Translations under genes and position numbers: made by a program | The notes under the pieces: generated by a model | Seen by the model: only the letters and a program-made list of their open reading frames with translations | Database searches by the model: none | Told to the model about the DNA's origin: nothing | Part shown: one piece after another, positions 1,714 to 5,272 of the stretch | Layout of the letters: each line of letters starts with the position of its first letter | Numbering within the stretch: position 1 is the first letter of the stretch | Assembly (NCBI GenBank): GCA_025449935.1 | Contig: JANWIJ010000077.1 | Span: 1-37,279 of the forward strand | Direction of reading: 5' to 3' | DNA from: Chitinophagaceae bacterium | GTDB lineage: Bacteria > Bacteroidota > Bacteroidia > Chitinophagales > Chitinophagaceae | DNA: 37,279 nt

Positions 1714-3522
1714 ATGGAAAAATTCATAGTTTCAGCGAGGAAATACAGGCCACAGACTTTTGACACCGTAGTGGGACAGGCGCATATAACCACTACCCTT
1801 AAAAATGCTATCAGGCACCAGCAGCTGGCTCATGCATTCCTGTTTTGCGGACCGCGGGGAGTGGGTAAAACAACCTGTGCCCGGATTTTAGCCAAGACCA
1901 TCAACTGCGAAAATCAAACAAAAGAAGGAGAAGCCTGTAATACCTGTCAATCCTGTATCTCATTCAACGACGGAGCTTCCATGAATTATTTTGAGCTGGA
2001 TGGGGCCTCCAATAATTCGGTAGATGATATCAGGGAACTGGTTACACAGGTCCGCTTTGTACCACAAACCGGCAGTTATAAGGTATACGTGATTGATGAG
2101 GTGCATATGCTGAGCTCATCTGCCTTCAATGCTTTTTTGAAAACACTCGAAGAACCCCCACCCTATGCAATTTTCATTTTAGCCACCACCGAAAAACATA
2201 AAATACTTCCCACCATTCTCAGCCGCTGCCAGATTTTTGATTTTAAACGCATCACCATCACAGACACGGTCCGTCACCTGGAAGAAATATGTAAAAAGGA
2301 AGATATAAAAACTGATAAAGCCTCTCTCCAGGTCATTGCACAAAAAAGCGAGGGTTGCATGCGGGATGCATTAAGCATACTTGACAAAATCGTCAGCTTC
2401 ACCAACGGCGAACTGAATTACACCAATACGCTGGAACACCTGAATATTCTTGATGCTGATTGTTATTTCAGGTTTTTGGAATGTATGCAGCAACAGGACC
2501 TCTCCGGTGCCATGCTGTTGTATGATGATATAAACCGGAAAGGTTTCGAAGGGGACCTGGTCATAAACGGGTTTGCGGAGTTTATCCGCAACCTGCTTGT
2601 TTGTAAAGATGAAAAAGCAGCCCGGTTACTGGAAGTTGTGGAAAGTTTCCGGGAAAAATATACTGAAACCGCAAAAAAAGTTTCGCCACTGCTTCTTATC
2701 AGTGCATTAAATATTCTCAATGAATCAGAGATCAATTATAAAGCCGCACGGAATAAAAGACTGCATGTTGAACTGGCCCTCATAAAACTTTGTTACCTCC
2801 AGCAAGCTATTCAGCTAACAGCCGAAAGTGGTGAATTAAGTAAAAAAAAACTAGTTGAGTCCGCCAAACCAGTTGCCTTTCGCCAGATTACACCAATGGA
2901 AATAAGAAAAGCCCCGTCGGACCGGCAACCGGGTGCCCGGCTGATCATTGAAACGACGCCTGGAAAAAATCAGCCGGAAAAACTGGAAGTGAAAGAAGCG
3001 ATTTCGTCTTATCCTGCACCTGAACCCGTTAACCATGAATTGCTGAAAGCCCAGCAGCCCGGTACCGGCAACAAGCTCTCCGCTCTTGACAAAATCCGCA
3101 AACAGTATAAAAGCAATGGTAATAACGGTAGTGAACCTGTTACCCATCCCCTGGATGCAGCGGAATTAAAAAATGCCTGGAACGACTATGTTCAAAAATT
3201 AAAAAAAGCCAAAAAACCGGCAGCCCAAAGCTTCGAACTTGCCGTACTTCGGATTAAAGATGAACATTCTTTTGAGGCAGTAACTTCCAATAACATTGAA
3301 AAACAATTTATCGAACAGGACAGGAATGCATTATTCAGTTTCCTGCTGGAAAGATTGAACAATCGCCTTTTACAGATCAATGTGGTGGTAGAAGACAAAC
3401 CTGCAGACCGGCCGGCACCCGAAATATCCCTGACCGCCAAAGAACAATTTCAAAAAATGGCTATGCAATACCCGCTGGTGAAGGAATTAAAGGACCGGCT
3501 TCGCCTGGAGCTGGACTATTAG
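1714..3522 (+). CDS. dnaX: DNA polymerase III subunit tau (and probably gamma), clamp-loader ATPase
   Basis: This is the clamp-loader ATPase of the replisome. Walker A GPRGVGKT is at residues 46-53, zinc-binding cysteines at 65, 75, 78 and 81, Walker B DEVHM at 128-132 and the SRC sensor/arginine finger at 170-172. Domain III ends near residue 370; the remaining 230 residues are a linker rich in Pro, Lys and Glu plus a C-terminal tau-type domain. The total of 602 residues compares with 643 for E. coli tau. At bases 2842-2850 (codons 377-379) there is a run of nine A directly after domain III. Both alternative frames stop within three codons (AAC TAG, or ACT AGT TGA), so slippage would yield a gamma-like protein of 379-381 residues. 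The start at 1714 matches the conserved N-terminus (ARKYRPQTFDTVVGQ). Confidence 0.97.
   Translation: MEKFIVSARKYRPQTFDTVVGQAHITTTLKNAIRHQQLAHAFLFCGPRGVGKTTCARILAKTINCENQTKEGEACNTCQSCISFNDGASMNYFELDGASNNSVDDIRELVTQVRFVPQTGSYKVYVIDEVHMLSSSAFNAFLKTLEEPPPYAIFILATTEKHKILPTILSRCQIFDFKRITITDTVRHLEEICKKEDIKTDKASLQVIAQKSEGCMRDALSILDKIVSFTNGELNYTNTLEHLNILDADCYFRFLECMQQQDLSGAMLLYDDINRKGFEGDLVINGFAEFIRNLLVCKDEKAARLLEVVESFREKYTETAKKVSPLLLISALNILNESEINYKAARNKRLHVELALIKLCYLQQAIQLTAESGELSKKKLVESAKPVAFRQITPMEIRKAPSDRQPGARLIIETTPGKNQPEKLEVKEAISSYPAPEPVNHELLKAQQPGTGNKLSALDKIRKQYKSNGNNGSEPVTHPLDAAELKNAWNDYVQKLKKAKKPAAQSFELAVLRIKDEHSFEAVTSNNIEKQFIEQDRNALFSFLLERLNNRLLQINVVVEDKPADRPAPEISLTAKEQFQKMAMQYPLVKELKDRLRLELDY
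2842..2850 (+). other. A9 slippage site inside dnaX
   Basis: Nine consecutive A encode KKK at codons 377-379, between serine AGT and leucine CTA. Adding one A gives K K K T S stop (TGA at 2856-2858 of the unedited sequence); removing one gives K K N stop (TAG at 2852-2854). This is the arrangement expected for transcriptional or ribosomal slippage making a short gamma subunit. Function is inferred from position and frame layout. Confidence 0.6.
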
Positions 3523-3577: not shown

Positions 3578-5272
3578 ATGGCCGAAGTAATATTAATGCC
3601 CCGTCTCAGCGATACCATGACAGAAGGTGTCATTGCCGCCTGGCATAAGAAAGTTGGGGATCCCGTTAAGAAAGGTGACCTGCTGGCCGAAATAGAAACG
3701 GACAAAGCTACCATGGAACTGGAGAGTTACAAAGATGGCACCCTGTTGCATCTTGGTGGGGATAAAGGAACAAAAATACAGGTGGATCAATTACTGGCTA
3801 TCGTTGGCAAAGAAGGGGAAGATATTACTTCGTTGCTGAAAGGCGGTAACGGGGATCAAAAAAAAGACGAAAAGAAAAAGGAGATGCCCGAAGAAAAGAA
3901 ATCTGCTGAAAAAACTCCTGCCCGGCCGGTGGAAACTGCTGAAAAAAAATCTCCAGGCATTGATATTTCAAAAATGGAAGAAGTGGTTTTGATGCCGCGG
4001 CTGAGTGATACGATGGAAGAAGGAGTCATTGCTGCGTGGCATAAAAATATTGGCGATACCGTGAAGAAAGGTGATGTTCTCGCTGAAATAGAAACGGATA
4101 AAGCCACGATGGAACTGGAAAGTTATAAGAACGGAACATTATTATATATCGGGGCTCAGCAAGGTGACAAAATCCCGGTAAACGCACTGTTGTGCATTAT
4201 CGGGGAAAAAGAAAAGATAGATATCGATGCTATTGTTTCGGCTGCAAAAAGTGGCGTAACAACAGAACAGTCCCCTGCTGATAAAAAAGAACAGGCTGCA
4301 CCGCCTGCCGCCAATCCAGAGCAGAAACAAATCAGCAGCCAGCAACCCATAACCGCTACGGTTGAGAAACAATCTTCCGTGGAAAACGGGAGGATAAAAG
4401 CTTCACCGCTTGCTAAAAAACTCGCAGCCGAAAAAGGAATTGATATCAAGACCATAAATGGCACGGGTGATGGAGGAAGAATAATTAAGTCTGATATCGA
4501 CAATTATAAACCCGGCAGCACTTCAAAAGCGGCTGAAGCTGGTGGTGGTCTGCCGCGGGGTGTATTGGCGCCTGCCGTTGTTACGGGGGAAGAAGGATAT
4601 ACTGATATCCCTAATTCGCAGATACGTACAATCATTGCCAAACGCCTGGGTGAAAGTAAATTCTCTGCACCCCATTTTTATCTTACTATGGAGATCAGCA
4701 TGGATAATGCTGTTTCAGCCCGCACCCAGCTGAATGAAGTAAGCCCTGTGAAGATCAGTTTCAATGACCTGGTGGTGAAAGCGGCGGCACTTGCTTTGCG
4801 ACAGCACCCGGCGGTAAACGCGTCCTGGATGGGTGATAAGATCCGCCGGAATCATCATATTCATATCGGGATTGCCGTGGCTATCGAAGATGGGCTGATC
4901 GTCCCCGTTATTCGTTTTGCTGACCAGAAACCATTGCCGCAAATCGCTGCAGAAAGTAAAGAGCTTGCCGGGAAAGCTAAAAATAAAAAGCTGCAGCCCA
5001 ATGAATTTACGGGCAATACTTTCACGATTTCAAATCTTGGCATGATGGATATTGACGAATTCACAGCCATCATCAACCCGCCCGACAGCTGCATCATGGC
5101 AGTGGGCCGGATAAAAGAGACCGTTATCAGGCGAAATGGATCATTTGAAGTGAGCAACGTGATGAAAGTGACATTAAGCTGTGACCACAGAAGTGTGGAT
5201 GGTGCTACGGGAGCTGCATTCCTCCAAACATTCAAGAAATACCTGGAGAACCCCGTCTCCATGTTATTATAG
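3578..5272 (+). CDS. pdhC: Pyruvate dehydrogenase complex E2, dihydrolipoamide acetyltransferase
   Basis: This 564-residue subunit forms the core of the pyruvate dehydrogenase complex and moves the acetyl group from lipoamide to CoA. It has two lipoyl domains, with lipoylated lysines K43 and K175 in identical ETDKATME contexts, then a peripheral-subunit-binding domain (about 273-308, ASPLAKKLAAEKGID...GTGDGGRI). The C-terminal acyltransferase domain (about 345-564) ends in the active-site motif DHRSVDG, with H537 and D541. Charged and Pro/Ala/Gln-rich linkers join the domains. The two lipoyl domains are nearly identical in protein but differ at many synonymous positions, so the duplication is not recent. 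No E1 or E3 gene adjoins it. It could in principle serve another 2-oxo acid complex, but the domain layout fits PDH best. Confidence 0.92.
   Translation: MAEVILMPRLSDTMTEGVIAAWHKKVGDPVKKGDLLAEIETDKATMELESYKDGTLLHLGGDKGTKIQVDQLLAIVGKEGEDITSLLKGGNGDQKKDEKKKEMPEEKKSAEKTPARPVETAEKKSPGIDISKMEEVVLMPRLSDTMEEGVIAAWHKNIGDTVKKGDVLAEIETDKATMELESYKNGTLLYIGAQQGDKIPVNALLCIIGEKEKIDIDAIVSAAKSGVTTEQSPADKKEQAAPPAANPEQKQISSQQPITATVEKQSSVENGRIKASPLAKKLAAEKGIDIKTINGTGDGGRIIKSDIDNYKPGSTSKAAEAGGGLPRGVLAPAVVTGEEGYTDIPNSQIRTIIAKRLGESKFSAPHFYLTMEISMDNAVSARTQLNEVSPVKISFNDLVVKAAALALRQHPAVNASWMGDKIRRNHHIHIGIAVAIEDGLIVPVIRFADQKPLPQIAAESKELAGKAKNKKLQPNEFTGNTFTISNLGMMDIDEFTAIINPPDSCIMAVGRIKETVIRRNGSFEVSNVMKVTLSCDHRSVDGATGAAFLQTFKKYLENPVSMLL

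Follow-up and report, generated by a model that had tools for sequence, protein, structure and literature searches.

In Escherichia coli, a single dnaX gene provides both the tau and the gamma subunit of DNA polymerase III by −1 frameshifting on the heptamer A_AAA_AAG, which is accompanied by a Shine-Dalgarno (SD) motif and a hairpin and followed by a stop right after the shift. The C-terminal tail of E. coli tau binds polymerase and helicase. In Caulobacter, proteolysis of tau yields the same gamma/tau pair (section 21 of PMC5009743). The protease there is ClpXP, and the gene has no slippage site. Transcriptional slippage has been reported for Thermus thermophilus, where a run of nine A (A9) on the sense strand of a one-ORF tau gene, near stops in both shifted frames, and two tRNA-Lys species go together with a gamma product (PMC1088944, PMC5009743). 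Slippage of the Thermus type is marked by a dnaX mRNA population of mixed run length and by gamma and tau at about 1:1.

Split dnaX genes, in which a poly-A run leaves tau out of frame, were described with GeneTack by Antonov et al. in 2013 (PMC3711429). The set comprised 17 fs-genes from 12 genera, nine of them with A10, and the split genes of Chloroherpeton and two Chlorobium species have 9, 8, and 7 A. Transcriptional realignment was proposed there for the split dnaX genes (A7-A10). The kind of site considered here is, thus, already known, both from Thermus slippage and from the split genes of 2013. Truncating cases like dnaX are hard to spot by comparison, since no new coding sequence follows the shift (PMC1088944).

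A run of nine A behind domain III

We analyzed a stretch of 37,279 nucleotides from a Chitinophagaceae bacterium (the window; GC 0.44). Its dnaX gene has the following features.

1714-3522, + strand: dnaX, DNA polymerase III gamma/tau (ORF; NCBIfam PRK14971; Pfam AAA+, lid, and domain III)
2452-2808, + strand: domain III (PF12169, from Pfam), residues 247-365, common to gamma and tau
2842-2850, + strand: proposed A9 slippage run, AAAAAAAAA, codons 377-379, Lys-Lys-Lys (from the sequence)
2852-2854, + strand: TAG stop of the −1A (= +1 ribosomal) frame, 379-aa product (from the sequence, product computed)
2856-2858, + strand: TGA stop of the +1A (= −1 ribosomal) frame, 381-aa product (from the sequence, product computed)
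3076-3519, + strand: tau-only C-terminal region, residues 455-602, which would need A9+3n

The downstream neighbor of dnaX (3578-5272) looks, from its translation read by eye, like a dihydrolipoamide acyltransferase whose N-terminal part has two similar lipoyl-like segments.

The identity of the gene comes from NCBIfam PRK14971 (691.8 bits, 1e-207, cut-off 685), and its zero frame, with A9, encodes a tau of 602 aa (602 codons, start at 1714). The run stands between AGT and CTA GTT GAG. An earlier note on this DNA had placed nine A at codons 377-379, a stop three codons on after one extra A, and a TAG after one A fewer; all of these can be read directly from the DNA, at exactly those positions. 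The note had also put the site just after domain III, and this holds: PF12169, the last Pfam domain on the 5′ side of the run, ends at residue 365, and the run begins at the 12th codon after it. A further model, NCBIfam PRK14955 (397 positions, gamma/tau), aligns with residues 5-379 only, below its cut-off (360.8 bits versus 560), and its alignment stops at the last lysine of the run. The window gene shares with that of Thermus the sense-strand A9, the one-ORF tau, the near stops in both frames, the two tRNA-Lys species, and gamma as a product, here a predicted one. In Thermus, which belongs to a different phylum, the run lies seven-eighths through the gene (PMC1088944); in the window, it lies at 63%, and slippage would be deduced rather than reported.

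Under the mechanism that we propose, RNA polymerase would add or drop A at the run, and the resulting dnaX mRNAs would differ in run length. The 602-aa tau would come from mRNAs with 9 or 9+3n A (602 and 603 aa computed for A9 and A12), whereas translation of mRNAs with 8, 10, or 11 A would meet TAG or TGA no more than three codons on and yield a gamma of 379-381 aa (computed as 381, 379, 380, and 380 aa for A10, A8, A11, and A7). This gamma would end just past domain III and, thus, be a clamp-loader ATPase that lacks the C-terminal tail. Judging from the sequence, a functional frameshift of either kind at the dnaX run is very probable, and the A9 is most likely a programmed transcriptional slippage site making gamma and tau mRNAs in the manner of Thermus.

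A lone A9 is unremarkable by chance, and the significance of this one rests on conservation. The window contains one A9 against 4.66 expected from dinucleotide shuffles of the window, and with 123 positions on both strands, A9 is not rare in the host genome. Positions with A7, A8, and A9 number 4555, 1040, and 123 in the genome, the fall from A8 to A9 being steeper than that from A7 to A8. Nine is an avoided run length in many genomes, and replication slippage could give the same avoidance (PMC1088944). As a point against slippage, 16 of 30 sampled genomic A9 matches (two of them forming one A10) lie on the sense strand of an ORF of at least 120 aa, so slippage there must be tolerated or weak.

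Conservation of the run and of the shifted stops

The comparison covered 295 distinct dnaX loci. The genus contributed 40 (the window’s own included), the family 88, named relatives 26, the order 2, the remainder of the class 91, and the remainder of the phylum 48. For the genus, 42 genomes were searched, two of which had no full-length dnaX copy; the family was sampled in 89 of the 138 other genomes that matched, the class in 87 of 103 outside the family, plus 6, and the phylum in 48 of 66 outside the class. Near relatives are overrepresented, because the loci taken directly were the best-scoring ones. Most of the named relatives are MAGs of Chitinophagaceae and other Bacteroidetes, in keeping with a host from that family, and they may overlap genomes also sampled unnamed. 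We left out L097, L111, L173, and L250 (contig end too near), L102 and L105 (domain III match not usable), L166-L168 and further repeat loci from genomes that were already represented, and four named loci with identical windows.

A run of at least nine A stands just after domain III in 250/295 loci, from genus to phylum: 39/40 in the genus (own included), 82/88 in the family, 25/26 among named relatives, 1/2 in the order, 77/91 in the rest of the class, and 26/48 in the rest of the phylum. Run lengths in relatives are 9 to 12 A. The other 45 loci, 6 of the 88 family loci among them, have no A≥9; L023, from the genus, reads AAA AAG AAA at the site. Among the first 239 loci, 183/201 one-ORF genes have at least nine A in the site window, compared with 0/929 N-terminal and 3/409 C-terminal control windows of 210 nt from the same ORFs (3/1338 in total).

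One could suppose a plain lysine-rich linker, in which the protein needs three lysines and AAA is merely the common codon; a linker tolerates lysine, and AAA makes up 75% of the lysine codons elsewhere in 69 aligned genes. We find this hardly credible. Codons 377-379 align with AAA AAA AAA in 67/69 genus and family loci, whereas lysine codon use elsewhere in the same 69 genes leads to an expectation of 28.9. This aligned count is preferable to the raw AAA:AAG ratio (609:30 inside the run versus 7203:2704 elsewhere), which is biased because the run was picked as the longest A-run. Elsewhere in those ORFs, Lys-Lys-Lys is encoded by AAA throughout in 0/9 instances, a small number of cases. Moreover, the run survives in phases where it encodes other residues (e.g., EKKK, EKKN, VKKK): it starts at codon position 1, 2, or 3 in 102, 70, and 78 of the 250 runs, and the base after it in relatives is C, T, or G. 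With all phases represented and the next base varied, neither a need for lysine nor a fixed heptamer accounts for the run, and what is kept is the run length at the DNA level, not a set of codons.

The stops in the shifted frames are conserved as well, which also speaks against a plain linker. Relative to synonymous shuffling of the codons after the run, both shifted frames stop within six codons in 36/39 genus genes (9.0 expected), 51/78 family genes (14.4), 7/23 named genes (3.1), and 36/43 class genes (13.9). Within 10 codons, both stop in 184/205 run-bearing one-ORF genes, compared with 3/38 in an inner control of one-ORF genes having neither the run nor an in-frame A_AAA_AAG. Each of the 250 run-bearing loci has exactly one open frame, defined as at least 100 codons or, in three loci (L096, L112, and L191) where it runs past the sampled stretch, as reaching its end; in 227 of the loci, the other two frames both end within 10 codons. 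L112, which has masked N, counts toward the 250, the 227, and the 82/88 and is outside the tree and the frame counts below.

Between the two shifted stops, that of the +1A frame is the better kept. It falls within six codons in 38/39 genus genes (14.1 expected), and within three codons, the family has it in 73/78 (25.7 expected), whereas the −1A frame stops that early in 36/78 (31.8 expected). Taken alone, the −1A stop is weakly enriched near the run in the family (within eight codons, 67 versus 45.6 expected), and named loci exhibited no enrichment of it within six (7/23 versus 9.0 expected). In the 36 one-ORF genes with CG right behind the run, the +1A stop comes within six codons in 36/36 and the −1A stop within six in 5 and within 10 in 28.

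Chance lysine codons as a sufficient cause are refuted by the 67/69 aligned sites together with these conserved shifted stops. The earlier note had suggested checking relatives for AAG codons or missing shifted stops; the genus retains the run in 39/40 loci and the double stops in 36/39, and the triple AAA holds at 67/69 aligned sites. Its reading of the site as likely gamma-producing slippage is, thus, supported by the conserved run and stops, and the mechanism would in all likelihood be transcriptional.

Genes with tau in another frame

In 44 loci, the DNA itself puts the long (tau) frame out of frame, 39 times in the −1 (+1A) and 5 times in the +1 (−1A) direction (L099, L107, L218, L219, and L264). 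In these genes, the zero frame ends 1-10 codons past the run, and the long frame is a different one. We located the tau frame in relatives with a C-terminal HMM made from residues 455-602 of the window tau; it matches the long frame at more than 10 bits in 34/44 loci, including all five +1 cases. The other 10 have no HMM match, their open frame being 149-237 codons long, and eight of them come from the rest of the phylum. A further −1 case, L106 (A8, single-contig genome), lies below the length cut.

The 44 relatives (34 of them HMM matched) share with the GeneTack split genes a poly-A run and an out-of-frame tau (PMC3711429). The window gene is unlike these in having tau, not gamma, in the zero frame, and in contrast to the split genes, the 0, −1, and +1 arrangements interchange here within one phylum.

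On a FastTree phylogeny of the N-terminal part of dnaX (294 rows, 249 loci frame labeled), the out-of-frame genes are scattered, and the tau frame changes at least 28 times, compared with a mean of 41.5 (range 37-44) for shuffled labels. With branches under 90 or 95 support collapsed, at least 24 or at least 18 changes are left. Such scatter would also result from phase variation by replication slippage, or from sequencing errors. The run length would then vary in the DNA, and tau would be switched between on and off within the population, or in assemblies only. Homopolymers of 9-12 are indel prone, many of the loci are MAGs, and some individual out-of-frame cases may be assembly errors. As the general explanation, however, this is very unlikely. 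All five sampled species of genus g158 (L234, L235, L268, L270, and L276) have A10 with the −1 arrangement, and out-of-frame dnaX genes also occur in single-contig genomes (L268, L331, L336, L345, and L347), so they are not merely assembly slips. Furthermore, an off switch for tau needs no stops in both shifted frames.

Returning to programmed slippage, we lean slightly toward a broader reading, in which dnaX would be frame agnostic across much of the Bacteroidota. Slippage would be efficient, the tau frame would drift near-neutrally among 0, −1, and +1, and selection would maintain A≥9 and two closed frames; gamma would be required in most of the phylum, with some lineages relying on A_AAA_AAG ribosomal shifting instead.

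Slippage in transcription or at the ribosome

The main rival of transcriptional slippage is −1 programmed ribosomal frameshifting like that of E. coli, in which a tandem tRNA-Lys slip on A_AAA_AAA would bring the ribosome to the −1 TGA and end gamma there. The outcome would be the same, gamma and tau from one gene with a stop right after the shift, and A_AAA_AAA does lie in frame inside the run (AAA AAA AAA CTA). It is the only such heptamer at the run, where there is no in-frame A_AAA_AAG, and in E. coli, A_AAA_AAA is reported to be far less shift prone than A_AAA_AAG (PMC5009743). Ribosomal −1 shifting would also suit the better conserved −1 stop (38/39 in the genus) and the direction needed by 39/44 out-of-frame genes. 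However, the stop bias toward +1A and the 39:5 bias fit a mainly −1 shift and a mainly A-inserting slippage alike, and five genes require the opposite shift. Shifts in opposite directions are a mark of transcriptional realignment (section 10 of PMC3711429). For split dnaX genes, section 21 of PMC5009743 holds ribosomal frameshifting to be probable and describes E. coli-like stimulators in a Chlorobium.

Stimulatory signals such as those of E. coli were not seen around the window run, which is followed by C. A downstream hairpin stimulator was rejected on folding against shuffles and gene windows: no stable hairpin was found 3′ of the run (the downstream 50 nt have an MFE of −2.1 kcal/mol, with z +1.89; 198/200 and 200/200 shuffles equal or surpass the folding of the downstream 50 and 70 nt), in a test that is weak because the E. 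coli control (MFE −19.1, hairpin at the expected place, z about −2 against windows of its own gene) fails to stand out from shuffles (z 0.11). Relatives showed no excess of downstream folding over other windows of the gene (mean z −0.31, n = 183). By eye, the 18 nt on the 5′ side of the window run have no SD-like motif. An apparent SD excess in relatives (36/183 versus 13.2 expected from the rest of the ORF) disappeared once the local amino acid sequence was kept constant (30.8 expected).

The genome has tRNA-Lys genes with both anticodons, TTT (L354) and CTT (L352), among 30/32 tRNA matches scanned, and two tRNA-Lys species also argue against a slip on the ribosome. A heptamer has no need of 9-12 A in any codon phase. 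We, therefore, consider ribosomal −1 shifting unlikely at the run and infer slippage at transcription: the run exceeds a heptamer, is independent of phase, and serves shifts both ways, there is neither a hairpin nor an SD excess, and the two tRNA-Lys species and the steeper genomic fall from A8 to A9 point the same way.

Ribosomal shifting finds further support in loci without the run. An in-frame A_AAA_AAG followed after 3-4 codons by a −1 stop occurs in 5/22 run-less loci from genus to class (L069, L127, L131, L207, and L242, all without A9) and in 0/23 further run-less loci. In those five, it is possible that transcriptional slippage has been replaced by ribosomal shifting of the E. coli type.

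Thirteen phylum loci (L267, L269, L272, L273, L275, L277, L278, L279, and L310-L314) stand together on the tree and have a single long ORF with a longest site A-run of at most six; lacking the run, they would need another route to gamma, if they make it. In L239, from a 0.5-Mb reduced genome (G212), the dnaX ORF has 359 aa and ends at domain III, and no match to the tau C-terminal HMM was found in the stretch examined.

This analysis adds two things: the extent of the run, found in nearly all sampled family members, most of the class, and 26 of the 48 loci elsewhere in the phylum, and the repeated movement of the tau frame. GTDB places Chlorobium and Chloroherpeton in Bacteroidota. The earlier note’s remark that it knew of no Bacteroidota case, therefore, needs qualifying, since both genera are named among the split dnaX genes (PMC3711429). 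Besides that paper, the matches listed in the literature searched, which leaves most subscription papers outside and in one case covers 10 of 107 matching papers, included no report of dnaX slippage in Bacteroidetes or Bacteroidota; PMC3971599 scores dnaX as present or absent in symbionts. Neither the breadth of the run nor the drifting tau frame was found in the parts of the literature covered. The double-stop and frame-drift tests get around the difficulty of recognizing truncating slippage by comparison.

The importance of gamma in E. coli is controversial (section 21 of PMC5009743). If our reading is true, a slippage site selected over most of the phylum would mean that gamma is made and needed there, presumably in the clamp loader, and the many natural frame switches make this need testable. 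dnaX would also be a replication gene whose reading frame is not fixed in the DNA, and where dnaX is split, its tau half may escape gene callers.
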